From NCBI RefSeq assembly GCF_016793485.1, contig NZ_JAEULZ010000046.1, forward strand, positions 124,001 through 188,000: a DNA stretch of 64,000 nucleotides, written 5' to 3'. The stretch is from Mesorhizobium sp. Its GTDB lineage: Bacteria > Pseudomonadota > Alphaproteobacteria > Rhizobiales > Rhizobiaceae. Of the stretch, positions 2,054 to 10,352 are shown in pieces. The translations under genes and the position numbers were made by a program. The stretch's first letter is position 1; the number at the start of each line of letters is the position of its first letter. The notes below the pieces were generated by a model. The model saw only the letters and a program-made list of their open reading frames with translations, did no database searches and had not been told where the DNA came from.

Positions 2054-2935
2054 CTATGTTTTCTCAACCTTGCGCAAGCCACAATCCAAGAGAGCTTTCA
2101 TAAGTCCATCGAACCGCCTGAACAGCACGATATCTTCCGCCAATGCAGCGTCGGCCAAGCGCATCGCCCCCCAGCGCCTTCTCAGGCTTTGCCACCCCTC
2201 CGGCCGAATCGACCTTGTCTGCTGGTTCAGGACTGCCGCGACAAATCCATTTTCGATGAACAGTTCGCAAAGGTCGTCGAGACGCGCGCCGCGATCATCG
2301 AGCATCGAGCATATCTCGCAAAGCAGCACAATTTCTTCGGGATGGTGGCGCAGCAACTTGCTGCAGCCGCGCAAGACGTCCAGTTCCGAACCCTGGACGT
2401 CTAGCTTGATGACGAGAGGCCGTCGCCTGATGCCGGCATAGCCATCGAGAGCACGTGCATTGACGTGGACGAACGCATACCCGTCGCGCGCTCCAAGTCG
2501 ATGATCACCCAAATTGTCGGCATCGAGGCTGAGCAACTCTGAGCGATCGCCATCGGACAGTGCGAAGGCGTTCACCCTGACGTTCGTAAGACTGCTTAGT
2601 GCTACGTTCCGGCGCAACAACTCCAGATTTCTCTTGTCGGGCTCGAAACTGTGAATTTCTCCTCGTGATCCGAGATAATGGCCGGCGACGACGCTATACC
2701 AGCCAATATTGGCGCCGACATCAACAAGATCGGCGTCCTTTCGGAGGAGTTCGGCCATCAGCGAGGTTGTCGTCTCTTCCCACATTCCAGAGCGATCTAT
2801 CGACCGGGAGATGTAGATGTCGCGCTGGCCGTGGGTTTCAAACGGGAGCGGTTCGATCCCCTTGAGTTTGATGACGCGCCGGTTTGGTTCCAGGGTGGGC
2901 GCGGCGTCAGGCTCCGGCCAAAAAGGGACTCGCAA
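2054..2935 (-). CDS. FkbM family SAM-dependent methyltransferase
   Basis: The 293-residue protein has the class I methyltransferase core of the FkbM family: VDVGANIGWYS (SAM-binding motif I, about residues 96-106), IHSFEPDKRN (motif II acidic residue) and the FkbM signature VIKLDVQGSELDVLRG (about 195-210). These enzymes O-methylate sugars or polyketides, and in rhizobial polysaccharide loci usually a glycan hydroxyl. An in-frame stop lies just upstream of the TTG start at 2935, and AAGGAA sits 9 nt before it, so TTG is the likely start. It diverges from the GT71-like gene with a 74-bp gap, so both promoters share that gap. The methyl acceptor is not known. Confidence 0.85.
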   Translation of the reverse strand: MRVPFWPEPDAAPTLEPNRRVIKLKGIEPLPFETHGQRDIYISRSIDRSGMWEETTTSLMAELLRKDADLVDVGANIGWYSVVAGHYLGSRGEIHSFEPDKRNLELLRRNVALSSLTNVRVNAFALSDGDRSELLSLDADNLGDHRLGARDGYAFVHVNARALDGYAGIRRRPLVIKLDVQGSELDVLRGCSKLLRHHPEEIVLLCEICSMLDDRGARLDDLCELFIENGFVAAVLNQQTRSIRPEGWQSLRRRWGAMRLADAALAEDIVLFRRFDGLMKALLDCGLRKVEKT

Positions 2936-3009: not shown

Positions 3010-4524
3010 ATGAGCGAAAACCAAGCCCATGATGAGCGAGAGCTGGCTGCGCTCGCTCTCCGACTGCGCCAACTGCCCGATGCGATCCCACGGCGCGACC
3101 GAAGCCAGGGGCGTGGAATCGTCATCCCCGCAGGTGGTTCCAACATTTTCACGAATGCCTATGTCCTCATATCGATCTTGCGGCGGACGCTCGGCTGCAA
3201 GCTGCCCATCGAGGTTTGGCATCTAGGGCCGCAGGAGATGTCGCCCACGATGGCAAGGCTGCTCTATGACCTGGACGTCATGGTTGTGGATGCGCTTCCA
3301 AGAATCGCCGCGGCGGGGTTAAATCTGCGCGACGGCTGGCAGTTGAAGTCGTTCTGCCTGCAGCACTGCCGCTTTGCTGAAGTGCTGCTGCTCGATGCGG
3401 ATCAAGTGCCTCTGGTCGATCCTTCGCAACTCTTCGACTGGCAACAGTACGGGGATACTGGCGCGGTCTTCTGGCCGGATGTCGTCGGGTTGCGATCCGG
3501 CAATCCCGTATGGCAGGCAATGGGCCTGCTGCCTGAAACGCCTGAGATCTCGCTCGAAAGCGGACAGGTCCTTGTCGATAAGCGAAGGCACTGGAAAGCG
3601 CTATCAATCGCGGTCGAACTCAACCAGGCGGCCGCTTTGATCTACCGATACGTTTATGGTGACAAGGATACGTTCCTCCTCGCCTTCCGGTTGGCCGATG
3701 AGGTGTTTTCGCTGGTGCCTCACGGGCCCTTCCGGGCCGCGCGTTGGATGGCGCAGCGTGACTTCTCAGGCGCGCCGATCTTCCAGCATCTGACGAACTG
3801 CAAATGGTCTTATTCATCGGACGAATCTCCGGGCGAAGGATTTCGCCGATACGACGAGTGCCTAGCGGCGCTTCGGCATCTGCGCCAACGCTGGAACGGT
3901 CGCATCTTCCATGCGCCGGATCGCCCGCCTGCGGCGCGGAGTATGGAAACTGAATTGGCCGCTGCTGGTCGGTTGCTGCTCGAGGTCATCGGAGAGGAGA
4001 AGGTCGAGATCGAGCTGCTTCCCCATGGCGAGATAGGCATCGGTCGCTCGGCGTATCGTCAGAACTGGTGGTGCGATACAGAGGAAGGCCAGTTGAGACT
4101 TCTGATCCGGGACGCGGATCGCGTGACATATCGGCTGAGGGTCGGGAAAGACGGGGTTTGGGAAGGCCTACGAAGCAGTCACGTCGAATCGTCGGCGACG
4201 TTAACGCGGACGGCCCCGCTGGCCTCGGACTGCTTCGATAGGCCAGGGATGGCCGACGACATGCTGCGCGCGATCAATTTCCCTGAGCATGGCGACGACG
4301 ACTGGGTGAGGCTTCGCGCGACCGTGGAAATAGTCGCGCGCTTCGATCCCAGCCTCCTTTCGCGCTTGCACACGATCGCATCGATGTGCGCCGAGCCTTC
4401 CAGAAGCACGCTGCTGGAACTTGTCGACGGCATCGAACAGCAGACCACATTTACAACGATCGAACGCACCAGTCTCGAGATTCTCCATAAACGCTATCGT
4501 CCCCTGGTCAACTTCGACAAATGA
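3010..4524 (+). CDS. MNN1/GT71-type putative mannosyltransferase
   Basis: This 504-residue protein carries features of the Mannosyl_trans3 (GT71, yeast Mnn1-type) family in its first 230 residues: GIVIPAGGSN, the acidic metal-site motif VLLLDADQVPLVDP (near 125-138), and a TGAVFWPDV segment. The last 200 residues have no motif I recognise. Such enzymes add hexose, classically alpha-1,3-mannose, from a nucleotide sugar. There is no signal peptide, so it probably acts in the cytoplasm on a lipid- or protein-linked acceptor. It overlaps the next gene by 4 bp (ATGA), showing translational coupling with the GT4. The family is well known in fungi and patchy in bacteria. Sugar specificity is inferred. 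Confidence 0.75.
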   Translation: MSENQAHDERELAALALRLRQLPDAIPRRDRSQGRGIVIPAGGSNIFTNAYVLISILRRTLGCKLPIEVWHLGPQEMSPTMARLLYDLDVMVVDALPRIAAAGLNLRDGWQLKSFCLQHCRFAEVLLLDADQVPLVDPSQLFDWQQYGDTGAVFWPDVVGLRSGNPVWQAMGLLPETPEISLESGQVLVDKRRHWKALSIAVELNQAAALIYRYVYGDKDTFLLAFRLADEVFSLVPHGPFRAARWMAQRDFSGAPIFQHLTNCKWSYSSDESPGEGFRRYDECLAALRHLRQRWNGRIFHAPDRPPAARSMETELAAAGRLLLEVIGEEKVEIELLPHGEIGIGRSAYRQNWWCDTEEGQLRLLIRDADRVTYRLRVGKDGVWEGLRSSHVESSATLTRTAPLASDCFDRPGMADDMLRAINFPEHGDDDWVRLRATVEIVARFDPSLLSRLHTIASMCAEPSRSTLLELVDGIEQQTTFTTIERTSLEILHKRYRPLVNFDK

Positions 4525-5747
4525 AGCGGCCAAAAGCACTCTTCATTGCGCCGGCGGCTCCAGGCCGAGATGGCAATGGGCTCGCAATGCGGCTCGGGGT
4601 ATTTTTGGAGGCCGTCGCCAGATGCGCGGATACCGAACTGCTAATCCTGCCAATCGCAGGACCGGGGGCGGAAGAATGCGATCTTGCTCGTCAACTAGGC
4701 ATTCGGGCATCAACGCTTGCAGTCGCCGGAATCACGGACACGAACTACCATCTGCTTAGTCGGTTGTCGTCCCCCGCCGATAGGCTCGCCGCCTTCAAGC
4801 GATACGGCCGAGGCTCCCGGCATTCCGCCATCTCGCTGCCGGTGGTCGAAGCGGTCCGCGCAATGGTTGAAGGCGACGATTTCGATCTGGTCCATACCGG
4901 TAGGCTCTACATAGCCGAGGCCGCGCTGGGAACTGGAGTTGCCCGCCGCACGCTTGATCTGGACGAAGACGATGCCTGGGCCTGGCGCAGGCAGGCGGAG
5001 TTGGCCCGCGAGGCCGGACGGGTCGAGACGGCCGAATGGGCGGAGGCCGAGGCGCAGGCAGAAGACCGGCTCCTTGGCCGCATCGCGAGCCGCTTTGACG
5101 CGCTGTTCGTGGCGGGCGATCTCGATCGTCAGCGCCTGCTCGCAAGGCACGGAGGCCTTCGGCTGGAAGTCATCCCCAACAGCGTGTCGCTACCCGCTTC
5201 GCCGAGACGCAACGAAGAGCGCGATACGCTTCTGTTTGTGGGCAATCTTTCGTATGCGCCCAACATCGAGGGTATTGTTTGGTTTATTCGCGAAGTTTTG
5301 CCCTTGATCCTGAAGGTACGCGCCGTCCGGCTGCGCATCGTTGGCCGTGGGCATTCGGTGGCACTGGCTGGCTTGGCGGACGGTGCGGTTGAAGTGCTTG
5401 GGGCTGTCGAGAATCTGACGGCGATCTATGAAGCGTCCACGCTCGCAATTGCGCCGCTTTTCTCAGGCGCCGGGACGCGTATCAAGGTCATCGAGGCGGC
5501 CGCGTTCGGCGTACCGCTGGTCGCCACCACCATAGCGACCCAGGGGCTCGCCATCTCCGCGGAGACAATTTGGCAGGCCGACGATGCTGCTGGCTTCGGG
5601 GCAGCGATCCTTGCCGCTCTCTCCGATCCTGAAGAGCGAGCGAGGCGTGCCCGCGGGGCCCGGCTCTTGGTCGCAGAACGCTACGATCGGGAACGCATAG
5701 TTGGCGATCTCGCCAACCGATTTGGTGATATCCTGGAAAGAACCTGA
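4521..5747 (+). CDS. Family 4 glycosyltransferase (GT-B fold)
   Basis: At 408 residues the length is typical of GT4 enzymes. The C-terminal Rossmann half is clear: LLFVGNLSYAPNIEG, LRIVGRG, and the GT4 acidic motif region APLFSGAGTRIKVIEAAAFG (about 313-332) that binds the nucleotide-sugar phosphates. The N-terminal acceptor half begins ALFIAPAAPGRDGNG. The gene starts with an ATG inside the stop of the GT71-like gene (ATGA overlap) and is followed 15 bp later by the kinase-like gene, so the three form one operon. It probably extends the same glycan; donor and acceptor cannot be read from the sequence. Confidence 0.88.
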   Translation: MKRPKALFIAPAAPGRDGNGLAMRLGVFLEAVARCADTELLILPIAGPGAEECDLARQLGIRASTLAVAGITDTNYHLLSRLSSPADRLAAFKRYGRGSRHSAISLPVVEAVRAMVEGDDFDLVHTGRLYIAEAALGTGVARRTLDLDEDDAWAWRRQAELAREAGRVETAEWAEAEAQAEDRLLGRIASRFDALFVAGDLDRQRLLARHGGLRLEVIPNSVSLPASPRRNEERDTLLFVGNLSYAPNIEGIVWFIREVLPLILKVRAVRLRIVGRGHSVALAGLADGAVEVLGAVENLTAIYEASTLAIAPLFSGAGTRIKVIEAAAFGVPLVATTIATQGLAISAETIWQADDAAGFGAAILAALSDPEERARRARGARLLVAERYDRERIVGDLANRFGDILERT

Positions 5748-5762
5748 CTGCAGGAAACTGAC

Positions 5763-6593
5763 ATGCCGCCGCCGATCTTGGTTCGAACCTTATCTAGCGA
5801 ATATCGGCTCGACGTGCCCTCCAAGCTTGCGCGCGACCGTTTCGCGTTTGTGCGCACCGATCCCGAACTGGAAGATATGACGCTGACCCCGATCGATATC
5901 GAGGTTACCGAATCGGAGGGATTTTACCGGATGCCGCTTCCAAACGGCCCGGTTATCGAAGGAACGTCCGGCCACTGCATGGATGTCCTTCACGGATTGT
6001 TGATAAGCGACCTTCTAAAGGCTTATCCCGGATATCCCTTGATTCACGGCGCGACGATGCGGATCGGTGCCAACCGCATTTTGGTGGCCGGGGGAAAGGG
6101 GGCGGGGAAATCGACGCTCGCCCTTTACATGCTGTCGAGGGGACATGATGTGGAAGGCGACGAGCACCTTCTCGTTCTTCCCGACGCCGTTGTCGCTCGG
6201 CCGCGCACCCTGCGCATCAAGCCCAACACGCTGAAGATTCTCGACGGGCTGCCGCCGTCAATCGCGTCGTCCCCCGTTCAAAGCCTATGGAATGGGACTG
6301 CGGTGCACTCGGTGAGCCCATCGCTTTTTGGCCGACCCTGGCGCATTGCCCAAGGCAGCCTGGCTGGTATGTTCTTCGCGGAAGCGAATCATGGCGGGCG
6401 GTCGATTGCCAGGCGGATCAGCGTGGAGGAAGCCTTCGCGAGGTTGGTGGCGAATACCTACTTCCTGAAGTCGGGCATTGCCGGAATGGCAAGCCGCCTC
6501 AGGCTTCTGGCTCTCGGAACCCCGGCATACCTGCTGCAATTGGGCGACCTTGCCTCGGCCGAGTGGCACTTGACGATGGCGTCGCGCTCTTGA
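5763..6593 (+). CDS. HprK-related P-loop kinase (HPr(Ser) kinase-like)
   Basis: The 276-residue protein has a Walker A motif GGKGAGKST (residues 110-118), then GDEHLLVLP (132-140) at the place of the HprK acidic pair, on an HprK-type beta framework (LIHGATMRIGANRILVAG). True HprK phosphorylates Ser46 of HPr. HprK-related proteins next to PqqD-like and nucleotidyltransferase genes are a separate group, and one branch phosphorylates serine in lasso peptides. Here it lies 55 bp upstream of a Ser-rich small peptide gene and in the same locus as a PqqD-like protein, so that peptide is a possible substrate (inference). No HPr or PTS gene is nearby. The start ATG at 5763 follows a weak CAGGA ribosome site. 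Confidence 0.8.
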   Translation: MPPPILVRTLSSEYRLDVPSKLARDRFAFVRTDPELEDMTLTPIDIEVTESEGFYRMPLPNGPVIEGTSGHCMDVLHGLLISDLLKAYPGYPLIHGATMRIGANRILVAGGKGAGKSTLALYMLSRGHDVEGDEHLLVLPDAVVARPRTLRIKPNTLKILDGLPPSIASSPVQSLWNGTAVHSVSPSLFGRPWRIAQGSLAGMFFAEANHGGRSIARRISVEEAFARLVANTYFLKSGIAGMASRLRLLALGTPAYLLQLGDLASAEWHLTMASRS

Positions 6594-6648
6594 CGCCATG
6601 GGCGTAATGTTGTTCCTCACCCAGGCTGAAACTTGCAGAGGGACTATC

Positions 6649-6837
6649 ATGAACGATCAGGAACGCCTCAACAATGCGCTCGAAACGATCGATGAATCAC
6701 GGCGCGGTGCATTGCGCAAGCTTGTTGTGACCGCATCCTTCGCTCCGCCCGTCGTCGCTTCGTTTGCGATCAACGGCATGATGGTGACCTCTGTGCAGGC
6801 GCAGTCGGGCTCCAGCAACATGACAAACATATTCTGA
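6649..6837 (+). CDS. Small Tat-leader-like peptide, possible substrate of the kinase/PqqD system
   Basis: This 62-residue protein starts at ATG 6649, 8 nt after AGAGGG. Residues 17-24 (SRRGALRK) resemble a twin-arginine motif. A hydrophobic stretch (about 25-48, interrupted by a PP pair) and a VQA site at 49-51 follow, which would leave an 11-residue C-terminal peptide QSGSSNMTNIF, rich in Ser/Asn/Thr with one N-x-T triplet. I know of similar short RR-containing proteins in bacteria but no assigned function. The gene sits between the HprK-like kinase and a GT2 gene whose reading frame overlaps its stop codon. It could be a secreted peptide, a RiPP-type precursor, or simply a small membrane anchor. 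Confidence 0.65.
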   Translation: MNDQERLNNALETIDESRRGALRKLVVTASFAPPVVASFAINGMMVTSVQAQSGSSNMTNIF

Positions 6838-7967
6838 CGCGAGCTTCGATTTCGGCGGCGCTGATTGTCCGCAACGAAGAAAAATTCCTGGACGGCTGCT
6901 TGGCATCGATAGCGGCTCATGTCGATGAGATCGTGATCGTCGATACTGGCTCGACGGACAGTACCCTTGCCATAGCAAGATCCTATGACGCCACCGTCCT
7001 CGAACGGGTGTGGCGGAACGATTTCGCGTGGGCCCGCAACGAAGCTCTGGCAGCCGCGAGCGGCGACTGGATTCTCTATATCGACGCCGACGAGCGCCTG
7101 ATACTGCCGGACGGGGGCGATCTCGCCGAGGGCCTCGACCCTGCGGATATCCTCGCTGCCCGCGTGGGTTTCCGACCGAAGGTCAACTCAACGCCATTTC
7201 GTGAGCATCGCCTTTTCCGCAACAGTCCACGCATTCGCTTCCGCGGGACAATGCACGAAACGGTGATGCCGGATCTTGCCTTGCTCATAAAGGAAACAGG
7301 TGGACGCGTCGTCGATACCCGCGCGGAGATTCAACATCTCGGCTATGAGGGCGAGCAGTCTCACAAACATGCACGCAATCTGCCTCTGCTGCGTGCCGCC
7401 CTCAAGCGGGAACCCGGGCGTCTCTACTATTGGCACCATCTTGTTTCGACGCTTGAGGCAATCGGCGAGGTCGACGAGGCCATGGTCACTGCCACCAAGG
7501 TTGCGGAGCGCATGAGACAAACCGAACCGACCGGCATGGAGCGTCCGATTGCCTCACTATTGCTGTGCACTTATGCGCGACTGCTGCACGCACGCGGCCA
7601 CGATGCCATGCCGGAGATCGAGGCTGGGCTGGCCTACTATCCTGAGCACGCCTACCTGCGGCTCATCAAGGCACAAGTCCTGATCGACAGGAATGAACCT
7701 GCGCTCGCGATCACCATCCTTGAAGAACTTGCCGCTATCGACGGCGCGACATATGCGGACGAGACGCTTTCTCATGACCGCCGTATCTTCGATGTTTGGG
7801 CGCATGATCTGCTCGGCGTCGCGCTGCTTCGTCTGGGACGGCGTAATGAAGCGGCTGCATCCTTCGAACGCGCTGCCGCCGGTGCGCCGGACGATCTGTC
7901 CTATAAGGCGAAGGCATTGGCGATCAGACCGTCTTCCGGGTCGCTGGGGAAAGCAGCGAACTCATAA
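6834..7967 (+). CDS. Family 2 glycosyltransferase with C-terminal TPR-like region (unusual start)
   Basis: The family match starts at about 6846 (ISAALIVRNEEKFLDGC), well before the first TTG at 6900 and with no in-frame ATG or GTG available. The most plausible start is CTG 6834, which overlaps the preceding peptide stop as CTGA; ATT 6831 is an alternative. The catalytic motifs are VIVDTGSTDST and the DXD-type YIDADERL. The second half (about 200-370) is helical with tetratricopeptide-like repeats, as in many bacterial GT2-TPR proteins, which may bind the acceptor. The 3' end overlaps the convergent nucleotidyltransferase gene by 44 bp. Together with the upstream peptide and kinase it forms one transcription unit; it could glycosylate that peptide or the polysaccharide. 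Confidence 0.78.
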   Translation: MTRASISAALIVRNEEKFLDGCLASIAAHVDEIVIVDTGSTDSTLAIARSYDATVLERVWRNDFAWARNEALAAASGDWILYIDADERLILPDGGDLAEGLDPADILAARVGFRPKVNSTPFREHRLFRNSPRIRFRGTMHETVMPDLALLIKETGGRVVDTRAEIQHLGYEGEQSHKHARNLPLLRAALKREPGRLYYWHHLVSTLEAIGEVDEAMVTATKVAERMRQTEPTGMERPIASLLLCTYARLLHARGHDAMPEIEAGLAYYPEHAYLRLIKAQVLIDRNEPALAITILEELAAIDGATYADETLSHDRRIFDVWAHDLLGVALLRLGRRNEAAASFERAAAGAPDDLSYKAKALAIRPSSGSLGKAANS

Positions 7968-9060
7968 CGCTCCAGCGCAGCTTTTGCCGGCCCAGCCAAG
8001 TCGCGCCGTCCGGCATCCGGCTCAGCCTTTTACCCGAGAGTCCCATCCGCAGTTCGTTCAAGATGCCGCCATAGTTGCCGATCGCATCTCCCGTTCGATG
8101 CGACATGCGTTTCCATGATGCAATGGCATCCGGCTGAATCGAAAATGGCGCAGGCACCGGCATCCGGAAACGCTCTGCCGCTGCAGCGAGCCAGAGGTCC
8201 AAGATCGCGACAAGTCGGGGATGCGAAACCGCAAGGTTTAACAGTTCGTGGCGGCCGGCATCCGTAAGGTCTGCGAAGGCGGCGGCGAACTCGTAGAGAC
8301 CCTTCGTGCTCAGCCTCCCATACTTGTCGCCACGATGCGAGACATGATGGTGGATGACGCAATAAAGCAGGTCCGTGTGAGGCGGAAGGATGCGGGCGAT
8401 ACCATCGTGTCGGCTGTCGCGAAGGCTTTGCGCCATGAGCGTCTCCGTGCTCAGCAGGATGTCAGCCCTATGCATCGCCGCGCGGTCGTGGAACTCCAGC
8501 CAGCCAGGTAGGTCGTCGCGATAGAGATTGATCTCGTGGTGCCAGTTGGCGGGCTGTTCGTAACCGGCGGCTGGCGTATAGCCGGCGCGAACGGCAACAG
8601 CTTGGGCTTCGACGGCGCGGCCAGGCGTCAGAAGATCGAGATCCCCCATCGTTCGCCATCCGGGAATGCCGGTCCATAGGGTACGGGCTCCTTTCAGGAG
8701 CAGCGGCTCCATTCCGCTCGCGTTGAGGAGACCGACCAGTTCGATCAGCCGGTCAAGCATGGCAGCGCGAACCGCTTGGTGGCGTGCAATTCCCTCGCTC
8801 AGCGCCAGGGTGATTGTTACGCGCCCATCGGACGAACGAAACTCAGGAATGCCTGCAGTAAGGTGTTTGCGGTTCGCTTCTGTCCCTAGAGCCGGTAGAA
8901 GTTGGCGCATGTTGGCAGCCGCGACCACGTCATCCCACGCACCCGCGTTCAACCGGCTCCGAAGCGCCAATATCTCGTCTGGCGCCTGGACCATTGCCAA
9001 GCATTGGCAAAGCTCCAGCACCGCTTGTTGTTCATCCGTTGGGTGCGTCGAGCTTTCCAC
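7924..9060 (-). CDS. Nucleotidyltransferase family protein (NTP_transf_5-like)
   Basis: The 378-residue protein contains the hallmark of the uncharacterised NTP_transf_5 group of minimal nucleotidyltransferases: LLLKGARTLW followed by GWRTMGDLDLLTP (about 120-148), where the two Asp residues are the likely metal ligands. Later HEINLYRD and LEFHDR also match the family. Members often sit beside PqqD-like and HprK-like genes in exopolysaccharide or peptide loci; their reaction is not established. It is followed 3 bp upstream on the same strand by the GT62-like gene, so both belong to a minus-strand operon convergent with the GT2. It may transfer a nucleotide or phospho-sugar group to the product of this locus (inference). 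Confidence 0.75.
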   Translation of the reverse strand: MESSTHPTDEQQAVLELCQCLAMVQAPDEILALRSRLNAGAWDDVVAAANMRQLLPALGTEANRKHLTAGIPEFRSSDGRVTITLALSEGIARHQAVRAAMLDRLIELVGLLNASGMEPLLLKGARTLWTGIPGWRTMGDLDLLTPGRAVEAQAVAVRAGYTPAAGYEQPANWHHEINLYRDDLPGWLEFHDRAAMHRADILLSTETLMAQSLRDSRHDGIARILPPHTDLLYCVIHHHVSHRGDKYGRLSTKGLYEFAAAFADLTDAGRHELLNLAVSHPRLVAILDLWLAAAAERFRMPVPAPFSIQPDAIASWKRMSHRTGDAIGNYGGILNELRMGLSGKRLSRMPDGATWLGRQKLRWSVMSSLLSPATRKTV

Positions 9061-9063
9061 AGG

Positions 9064-9825
9064 CTAGTTCGGATGGTGGAGAACTTCGAGATCTGGCAGT
9101 CCCCAGCATTGGACGCCCATGTCGGACGCCATGATTCCTAGCCCCTCGGTCTCGATCTCTCCCGCTCCCCACGCCCCGGCCTTCACTCTAATGCGGTGGT
9201 TGGGCCTGCCATAGGGAAAAGGCGGAAATATCAGGCCTTCACGGTGAAGGTCCGCCCTTATCATCAGGATTGTTCCCCCTACTGAATCCAGACGAACCGC
9301 GCTTGACCCGCGGCGATCCTCAAGAAGAGTTTTGCCCTGATCGGCCCAGCTGTTCCTGTCAAAACTCTCCCCGCCGGGCTTGGTGACTGCGTGTGGTGTC
9401 ACGATGTTGAAGCCGGTAGCTAGAAGACGAGAGATAATGTCTGGTGGGTAGTCGATCATGTCGACATCGATCCACAGCACCCAATCTTCGTCGCGAAGAG
9501 CCGAGAACAGAAGTCGGTTCCGCGAGCGCGCAAGGATCTTGCGGCGAGCCATTTGATAGGATGGCGTCCAGCGCTGCTGTCCCGCGGGAATGGAAAAACC
9601 GTAGGCATGGCTTGAAACTGTCACGCGCGAGCAGCGAGCCTCGAGTCGCGGCCGCAACCTGTCGATCACATCCAGTGTCTCATCCACGCTATCGCTTTCC
9701 AGCATTCCCAGCGACAACCGCTCTTGCGGCCAGTCAAGCGTCTCTACCAGCTCGACATATCTGGGCAGGTGGGCGGCCGCGCTTTTGACCGGCGTCAGGA
9801 TGAGAATTTTCGGTTCGTCTGACAT
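9064..9825 (-). CDS. Anp1/GT62-like glycosyltransferase
   Basis: At 253 residues this matches the Anp1 family (GT62, subunits of yeast mannan polymerase): an N-terminal ILILTPVKSAAAHLPRYVEL, then LGMLESDSVDET, then the metal-site motif WVLWIDVDMIDYPPDII (about 116-132), and the ARRKILARSRNRLLFSAL segment that fungal members share. Such enzymes add alpha-1,6-mannose in fungi. In bacteria they are seen sporadically in glycan loci. It is on the minus strand, 3 bp upstream of the nucleotidyltransferase gene, and divergent from the PqqD-like gene. With the GT71-like enzyme it makes two fungal-type mannosyltransferase relatives in one locus. Donor sugar is inferred only. Confidence 0.78.
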   Translation of the reverse strand: MSDEPKILILTPVKSAAAHLPRYVELVETLDWPQERLSLGMLESDSVDETLDVIDRLRPRLEARCSRVTVSSHAYGFSIPAGQQRWTPSYQMARRKILARSRNRLLFSALRDEDWVLWIDVDMIDYPPDIISRLLATGFNIVTPHAVTKPGGESFDRNSWADQGKTLLEDRRGSSAVRLDSVGGTILMIRADLHREGLIFPPFPYGRPNHRIRVKAGAWGAGEIETEGLGIMASDMGVQCWGLPDLEVLHHPN

Positions 9826-9921
9826 TTTTTCCTTTTGGCGTCAGGGCTTGGCAGTCAAGCAGCGTGCGCTACAGTGTACGTATTCAGTGGTGAAGCAAGC
9901 ATAGCGGAGAAGCAAGTCAAG

Positions 9922-10218
9922 ATGGCGGAGACGATCGGAACGAAGGCAATCGAGGCCAATGCTACATTCGCAGTTTCATCAGACCTCGAGATTTCCCAGG
10001 TTCCTGACGGAGCCATGATCTTTCAGGCATCGCGCGATCGGGTTCACTATCTCAATCCGACCGCAGCGATCATCCTGGAATTGTGCGACCTCGGCAAATC
10101 CCGTGCCGAAATCGAGGCGTTCATGATCGAAGGATTTGCTTTGACCGCCCCGATAGCCGACGAGGTCGAGAAATGCCTGAACGACCTTCTCCTGGAAGGC
10201 TTGATCACTCCCGCCTGA
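9922..10218 (+). CDS. PqqD-like protein (RiPP recognition element type)
   Basis: The 98-residue protein fits the PqqD fold: a beta-rich N-terminus with MIFQASRDRVHYLNPTAAI (32-50), then the three-helix part ILELCDLGKSRAEIEAFM and a C-terminal LNDLLLEGLI. PqqD domains bind leader peptides and hand them to modifying enzymes. The start ATG at 9922 has GCGGAG about 12 nt upstream and gives the usual family length; an upstream in-frame TTG at 9835 would add 29 residues unlike the family. It is the last gene of the accessory locus before tRNA-Thr. No radical-SAM, B2 protease or lasso cyclase gene is present in the window, so its partner is probably the HprK-like kinase or the nucleotidyltransferase. 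Confidence 0.82.
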   Translation: MAETIGTKAIEANATFAVSSDLEISQVPDGAMIFQASRDRVHYLNPTAAIILELCDLGKSRAEIEAFMIEGFALTAPIADEVEKCLNDLLLEGLITPA

Positions 10219-10276: not shown

Positions 10277-10352
10277 TGGTGCCGCTTAGGTGACTCGAAC
10301 ACCTGACCCCATCATTACGAATGATGTGCTCTACCAACTGAGCTAAAGCGGC
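10277..10352 (-). tRNA. tRNA-Thr (anticodon CGT), CCA encoded
   Basis: The minus strand folds into a complete 76-nt cloverleaf: acceptor GCCGCTT/AAGCGGC, D-arm GCTCAGTTGGTAGAGC, anticodon stem CATCA/TGATG around loop TTCGTAA (anticodon CGT), T-arm AGGTG TTCGAGT CACCT, discriminator A and an encoded CCA. Its 3' end faces the accessory glycan locus, the usual side for tRNA-targeted island insertion. Confidence 0.95.

Follow-up and report, generated by a model that had tools for sequence, protein, structure and literature searches.

A RiPP-like locus of Mesorhizobium sp. that probably encodes the modification of a very short peptide

The present work analyzes a 64,000-nucleotide stretch of DNA from Mesorhizobium sp. 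(within contig C21; genome of 5.2 Mb), hereafter called the window, and a locus that spans about 3.0-10.2 kb of it. This locus probably encodes a pathway resembling those of ribosomally synthesized and post-translationally modified peptides (RiPPs) for a very short peptide, which would be glycosylated and perhaps phosphorylated; this reading is based on sequence comparisons and structural models. An earlier reading of the same DNA (the original prediction) had listed an HprK-like kinase, a PqqD-like protein, a nucleotidyltransferase and a 62-residue peptide among glycosyltransferases, and gene calls, Pfam and modelling confirmed that all of them are present. The genes encoding a PF11051 protein, a GT4-type protein, the kinase, the peptide and a protein combining a GT2 domain with tetratricopeptide repeats (GT2-TPR) follow each other on one strand; those encoding PF14907 and PF03452 proteins lie on the opposite strand and are followed by the PqqD-like gene on the first strand. 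Four of these proteins are glycosyltransferases according to Pfam (3010-4524, 4521-5747 and ~6849-7967 on the + strand, 9064-9825 on the - strand). The CAZy labels GT71, GT4 and GT62 used below are those that we take to apply to the PF11051, PF13692 and PF03452 proteins, respectively.

5763..6593, + strand: kinase with an HprK/PEPCK fold (fold from an AlphaFold2 (AF2) model), Walker A GGKGAGKST
6649..6837, + strand: 62-residue precursor-like peptide with SRRGALRK and FAPPVV (FxxPxV) in the leader, an AxA-type site before Q52 and the core QSGSSNMTNIF (boundary set by eye)
6849..7967 (5′ end approximate), + strand: GT2 + TPR protein resembling peptide glycosyltransferases, PF00535 plus TPR
9922..10218 (open frame from 9835), + strand: PqqD-like RiPP recognition element (RRE), PF05402
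7924..9060, - strand: NTP_transf_5 nucleotidyltransferase-like protein, PF14907 (5e-14, above cutoff)
9064..9825, - strand: GT62-like (Anp1 family) glycosyltransferase, PF03452 (3.2e-43)
3010..4524, + strand: GT71-like (Mannosyl_trans3) glycosyltransferase, PF11051 (9.6e-35)
4521..5747, + strand: GT4-type glycosyltransferase, PF13692 (2.8e-24)

Kinase similarity led to ten related loci, that is 11 with the window, all from one bacterial order (L019, first met via its peptide, is the same locus as L008). Using profiles of few members (seeded with the window and at most four further loci) against stop-to-stop frames, we found the kinase in all 11 loci, the peptide (one weak match) and the PqqD-like protein in 10, the GT2-TPR, NTP_transf_5, GT4 and GT71-like proteins in nine and the GT62-like protein in eight. 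A seedless clustering of 235 predicted genes retrieved the same eight families in at least seven loci and no ninth one. Besides these, a GT10-like gene is present in 4/11 loci and an ABC-ATPase-like family, recognized by reading the sequences, lies at the outer edges of L022 and L026 and upstream of the window; no other family occurs in more than two loci. No transporter, peptidase, lasso cyclase, polymerase, flippase or exporter was found among the eight recurrent families, the flanking genes being only partly annotated.

The original prediction had tied its peptide hypothesis to the presence of a small peptide in homologous loci, and such a peptide was retrieved in nine of the ten related loci (10/11 with the window). 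A spurious, chance open reading frame (ORF) was ruled out, because relatives of the peptide adjoin the kinase gene in nine other loci and because the ratio of nonsynonymous to synonymous changes (pN/pS) among tandem copies is 0.25, indicating purifying selection. These tandem precursor genes number seven in L022 (7115-8821) and three in L023 (11959-12599). For the KR-to-ANGSG segment, pN/pS is 0.25 inside each array and 0.23 between arrays; ANGSG is fixed in each, and the last few residues are variable.

When 18 peptides from 10 loci are aligned, R19, P34 and F39 are the same in all of them. The motif [FY]xxPx[VI] is found in the leader of 17/18 peptides and in 9/10 loci (the exception is L020), compared to only 1.2/18 expected to carry [FWY]xxP when leaders are shuffled. 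PMC10368454 reports a YxxPxL motif in lasso peptide leaders, and PMC12710340 gives W/Y/LxxP/L/I as the recognition sequence of several groups of RREs, including that of PqqD. The PqqD-like frame, for which the gene finder favours a start at 9922 over 9835, reaches 28.1 bits with PF05402 (cutoff 23.4), and the best PDB match of its profile is the lasso RRE TfuB1 (5.3e-4), PqqC/D being matched at 7.9e-4. The originally proposed Tat leader fits in part, with an RR pair in 4/10 loci and KR (5/10) or SR (1/10) in its place in the six others; hydropathy peaks range from 0.65 to 2.08, and export by Tat is a possibility. The window peptide has no Pfam or NCBIfam family above cutoff, and cysteine is absent from all 18 aligned peptides. 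No peptide match at E 0.01 was detected in the same-genus genomes G002 and G003. Wider searches of 385 genomes of the class and 398 of the phylum, scoring at most 16 candidates per genome, each returned the peptide itself plus one weak partial match (E 3.3e-4). Of these two weak partial matches, in G981 and G644, the one in G981 was set aside after its DNA had been read.

The strongest pointer to peptide modification, judging from its similarities and its predicted fold, is an enzyme that the original prediction did not set apart from the other glycosyltransferases, the GT2-TPR protein. Its profile (nine members) matched GmaR (4.6e-43), SunS (1.4e-35) and chain 7msk (ThuS; 6.4e-28) in the PDB, and a Foldseek search with its AF2 model (pLDDT 91.9) retrieved SunS (4e-17), ThuS (6e-15) and then TarS (5e-9). 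With the SunS family TIGR04195, it scores 71.7 (5e-20), below the cutoff of 350. The DAD motif is retained in 9/9 GT2-TPR proteins, and their gene comes directly after the peptide gene in 9/9 loci holding both. In the window, the first ATG, GTG or TTG of its frame is a TTG at 6900, within the GT domain, with none earlier (6834-6900); the protein may be translated from a rare codon overlapping the stop of the peptide gene, or there may be a sequence error. Taken as a whole, the leader motif, the PqqD-like protein and this glycosyltransferase close to known peptide and protein glycosyltransferases point to peptide modification, giving the original hypothesis a comparative support that comes from sequences and models.

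GmaR, the best profile match, is a flagellin GlcNAc (N-acetylglucosamine) transferase according to PMC9638930, and the GT2-TPR enzyme might accordingly glycosylate another protein such as flagellin, the peptide acting as its regulator. The two enzymes share the order GT2 then TPR, and the GT domain of GmaR is the closest solved one by profile. GmaR has 637 residues and the GT2-TPR protein is much shorter, so that an antirepressor domain would not fit, and the context is that of a tiny peptide. Against a regulatory peptide and another acceptor, the fold search puts the peptide enzymes SunS and ThuS first, and flagellar proteins are absent both from the nine window proteins scanned with Pfam and from the nine families found in at least four loci, the flanks being partly annotated. 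We therefore consider a role on flagellin very improbable.

The assigned cores, which begin after the A-x-A-like site, are 6-16 residues long in the 10 loci:

window: QSGSSNMTNIF
L008: QLSNGSAS
L020: QTANLHFTDPFVRLFS
L021: GVTLPNSTAS
L022, L023: QVANGSG.. (one copy per array used)
L025: AIVSNSTTS
L026: MAGNAG
L052: GKVMASNS
L053: QQTNSSN

Asn is the only residue found in every one of the 10 cores. The sequon N-x-S/T is present in 7/10 loci compared to 2.93 expected by within-core shuffling (P 0.003), and in 5/7 compared to 1.93 in a thinned set (P 0.008). A C-terminal Ser ends 5/10 cores, compared to 1.95 expected (P 0.02), and 4/7 in the thinned set, compared to 1.33. The window core contains neither Asp nor Glu, and Asp occurs only in the L020 core among the 10.

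By analogy, Ser or Thr as the modified residue would fit the known relatives of the kinase and GmaR, whereas the sequon and an Asn present in all cores would fit N-glycosylation. Locus L026 speaks against O-linkage alone, as it has a GT2-TPR gene but an assigned core devoid of Ser and Thr. A strict linkage between the sequon and GT2-TPR was also considered and was weakened by the same locus, whose GT2-TPR (found by profile search) coexists with a sequon-less core, and by the likewise sequon-less core of L052. Against N-linkage, we know of no enzyme of the GT2-TPR/SunS/GmaR group that links a sugar to Asn, and such an activity would be new. It is thus doubtful, if conceivable, that the locus encodes a cytosolic N-glycopeptide pathway, in which GT2-TPR would glycosylate the sequon Asn of an RRE-presented core of about 10 residues, relatives of the fungal mannan enzymes of the Anp1 type and of what we take to be the MNN1 type (with a GT10 fucosyltransferase in some loci) would build a complex glycan, and the kinase would add a phosphate.

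The second possible modification is phosphorylation. The AF2 model of the kinase (pLDDT 93.4) retrieved PEPCK folds with Foldseek, and HprK lower. By sequence comparison, ABC-type P-loop chains and HprK score in the same range; therefore, the kinase is assigned to HprK from its fold and from NCBIfam matches, TIGR04352 being matched at 1e-3 or better by 9/11 kinases. No named Pfam or NCBIfam family is above cutoff for the window kinase. According to PMC8498205, the residue that homologues of HPr kinase phosphorylate in lasso cores or precursors is the C-terminal Ser. In PMC10368454, phosphorylation of the precursor by the kinase BsfK requires the RRE BsfB1, and the cluster also carries a nucleotidyltransferase gene, bsfN. 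The profile of the NTP_transf_5 protein gave zero matches in the PDB. The original prediction had proposed nucleotidylation besides phosphorylation and glycosylation; the last two are kept, while the first calls for a qualification, as the nucleotidyltransferase of pseudomycoidin puts one or two hexoses on the phosphate and not a nucleotide (PMC8498205).

These enzymes raise the alternative that the PqqD-like protein, the kinase and the nucleotidyltransferase only phosphorylate and phospho-hexosylate the peptide, as for pseudomycoidin but with no lasso fold, the glycosyltransferase genes serving a separate glycoprotein or glycan. Locus L020 agrees with it in having the peptide, PqqD, kinase and nucleotidyltransferase genes and no GT2-TPR gene in the 16 kb examined, as does L053, which has these four and GT2-TPR but none of the GT4, GT62 and GT71 genes; the C-terminal Ser of 5/10 cores is also in its favor. 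However, the unbroken adjacency of the GT2-TPR and peptide genes, and the fact that the nearest relatives of GT2-TPR act on polypeptides, make a purely phosphate-based modification quite unlikely.

From gene content, conservation, motifs and the predicted folds of two proteins, we infer the following steps for a glycosylated and perhaps phosphorylated peptide: (i) the PqqD-like protein would bind the 62-residue precursor via the FxxPxV leader motif, in the way RREs bind lasso leaders, (ii) on this complex, the HprK-fold kinase would phosphorylate a Ser or Thr of the core and the NTP_transf_5 protein would work with it, probably putting a sugar onto the phosphate as in pseudomycoidin, (iii) the core would receive a sugar from the SunS/GmaR-like GT2-TPR enzyme, the glycan being extended or decorated by the GT4-, GT62- and GT71-like enzymes (with a GT10-like fucosyltransferase in some relatives), and (iv) the leader would also act as a signal peptide and be removed by cleavage at the A-x-A site, so that a core of ~6-16 residues would end up in the envelope or the medium. 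Export and A-x-A cleavage by the general machinery would explain why no dedicated transporter or protease recurs.

Several observations weigh against this interpretation. The kinase score falls well short of the HprK_rel_A cutoff (TIGR04352: 2.2e-7, 30.3 bits, cutoff 200), and the leader motif is a variant of the lasso YxxPxL, with F at the first position in most peptides. The limits of the cores were drawn by eye, the tests on the sequon and on the C-terminal Ser were framed after the cores had been seen, and the loci are not independent, as genera are shared by the window and L008, by L022 and L023, and by L021, L052 and L053. Terminal Ser is not uniform, the window core ending with Phe, and the L052 core ends with SNS without any N-x-S/T. 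The L026 peptide is a weak match (E 1e-3) with a poorly hydrophobic leader and a core lacking Ser and Thr, and this locus has no nucleotidyltransferase gene. L024 carries the kinase and two glycosyltransferase genes but neither peptide, PqqD, GT2-TPR, nucleotidyltransferase nor GT62; GT2-TPR, GT71 and GT62 are missing from L020 within the 16 kb examined. Other absences are those of GT4 in L025 and of GT4, GT71 and GT62 in L053. In L022 (12240-13073) and L023 (7703-8599), a second kinase beside PqqD has a degraded Walker A/P-loop and lacks the His at the conserved place; it may be a pseudokinase that pairs with the intact peptide-side kinase. Finally, the same genes could serve the synthesis of a glycan, the peptide being something other than the acceptor.

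This last point corresponds to an ordinary locus for a cell-surface glycan or exopolysaccharide, whose synthesis would be regulated by the PqqD-like protein and the kinase and in which the peptide would be a signal-peptide-like bystander or a regulator. The four glycosyltransferases of the window, the GT10-like gene of 4/11 loci and, at the window edge, an FkbM methyltransferase gene and an alginate-lyase-like gene all suit such a function. We nevertheless regard it as unlikely: the eight recurrent families include no polymerase, flippase or exporter, the GT2-TPR enzyme is nearest to protein and peptide glycosyltransferases, and neither tandem peptides with a fixed core nor an RRE-type leader motif would be expected.

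Compared with known systems, the putative pathway for a short modified peptide shares several features with phosphorylated or phosphoglycosylated lasso peptides (paeninodin, pseudomycoidin and the Bradymonas bsf cluster): a discrete RRE, an HprK-like kinase, a nucleotidyltransferase (by enzyme type), an aromatic-xxP-x-aliphatic leader motif and, in half of the cores, a C-terminal Ser. It differs from them by the lack, in the nine scanned proteins of the window and in the recurrent families, of an asparagine-synthetase-like cyclase and of a B2 peptidase, by a window core devoid of the macrolactam Asp/Glu, by a signal-peptidase-like A-x-A site, and by the additional SunS/GmaR-like GT2-TPR and GT4-, GT62- and GT71-like enzymes. 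A GT2-TPR protein with a SunS/ThuS fold, predicted by similarity, adjoining a small precursor recalls glycocins such as sublancin (SunS, ThuS). However, the 18 peptides have no Cys, the core is short, no exporter gene recurs, and an RRE and a kinase are present. The HPr-rel-A system of NCBIfam also combines a kinase (TIGR04352) and a PqqD-type protein (TIGR04353), remotely similar in sequence, but the window proteins are under the curated cutoffs (20.7 vs 35 for TIGR04353), the small peptide is different and several glycosyltransferases are present. As for PQQ biosynthesis, the PqqD-like protein scores 16.5 with the equivalog TIGR03859 (cutoff 46). The original prediction stated that no lasso (B2, C), PQQ or radical SAM enzyme is present in the window; this holds for the nine proteins scanned at 2.0-10.2 kb, in which Pfam detected neither a lasso cyclase nor a B2-type or radical SAM domain, most other parts of the window being unscanned for these.

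Judging from sequences, this system combines lasso-tailoring and glycocin-type modules and falls in neither family, as no cyclase or B2 protein was found and Cys is lacking. Its product is probably a previously undescribed kind of modified peptide, and no description of this gene combination was found in the open-access papers searched. If confirmed, a single very short core would bring together lasso-type leader recognition and phosphorylation with glycocin-type glycosylation, and kinase/PqqD/NTP_transf_5 gene sets, whose family names say nothing of the substrate, would gain a testable one. Such enzymes may also offer compact tools for attaching glycans to short peptides.

The kinase was retrieved at E 1e-10 or better in only six of 397 genomes of the order, that of the window included; therefore, the system looks rare and patchy. 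Family-level kinase searches around four matched genomes (2/12, 1/4, 3/69 and 1/5) added only two further genomes, and a kinase search of plasmid records gave no match.

Looser kinase searches reached 12 other genomes of 269 and two others of 383, all with far weaker matches. Nine distant loci were taken as a contrast (L007, L054-L059, L063 and L064), from six of the 12 genomes, both of the two and a second gene set of the window's own genome. Family profiles detected neither the window-type peptide nor GT2-TPR in seven of them (all but L056 and L059). A small ORF with an RR leader, mostly picked by eye, adjoins the kinase genes in 4/9 distant loci, near HprK-like, NTP_transf_5 or PqqD_rel_X genes:

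L057: 11509-11751
L058: 8867-9256
L063: 11662-11907
L064: 8576-8857

TIGR04353 is above cutoff in L058 and L064, and PF14907 is beside the small ORF in L057 and L063. The FxxPx[VI] pattern is missing from these ORFs, save for WSAPAV in L064. Their presence by 4/9 distant kinases is therefore a hint that small signal-bearing proteins may more generally act as substrates of such kinase systems. The second set of the window's genome, composed of PqqD, HprK-like and NTP_transf_5 genes (L007:10016-12422, contig C13), adjoins AMP-ligase-like and acyl-carrier-like genes, as read from gene lists, and no small peptide was picked out nearby.

Two loci of one genus include in the cluster a GMC oxidoreductase gene and a small adjoining gene (L021:4607-6755, with the oxidoreductase recognized by Pfam, and L052:4868-7055). 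In the window, the locus is bordered by two other features:

2054..2935, - strand: FkbM-type methyltransferase at the locus edge (PF05050, TIGR01444), of uncertain membership in the system
10277..10352, - strand: tRNA-Thr (ARAGORN)

The methyltransferase is outside the recurrent families obtained by seedless clustering. The G+C content is ~0.59-0.62 over the locus, compared to 0.54 for the initial 3 kb of the window and 0.62-0.67 starting at 11 kb; with the tRNA-Thr gene at the edge and the lower G+C on the locus side, a genomic island is possible.

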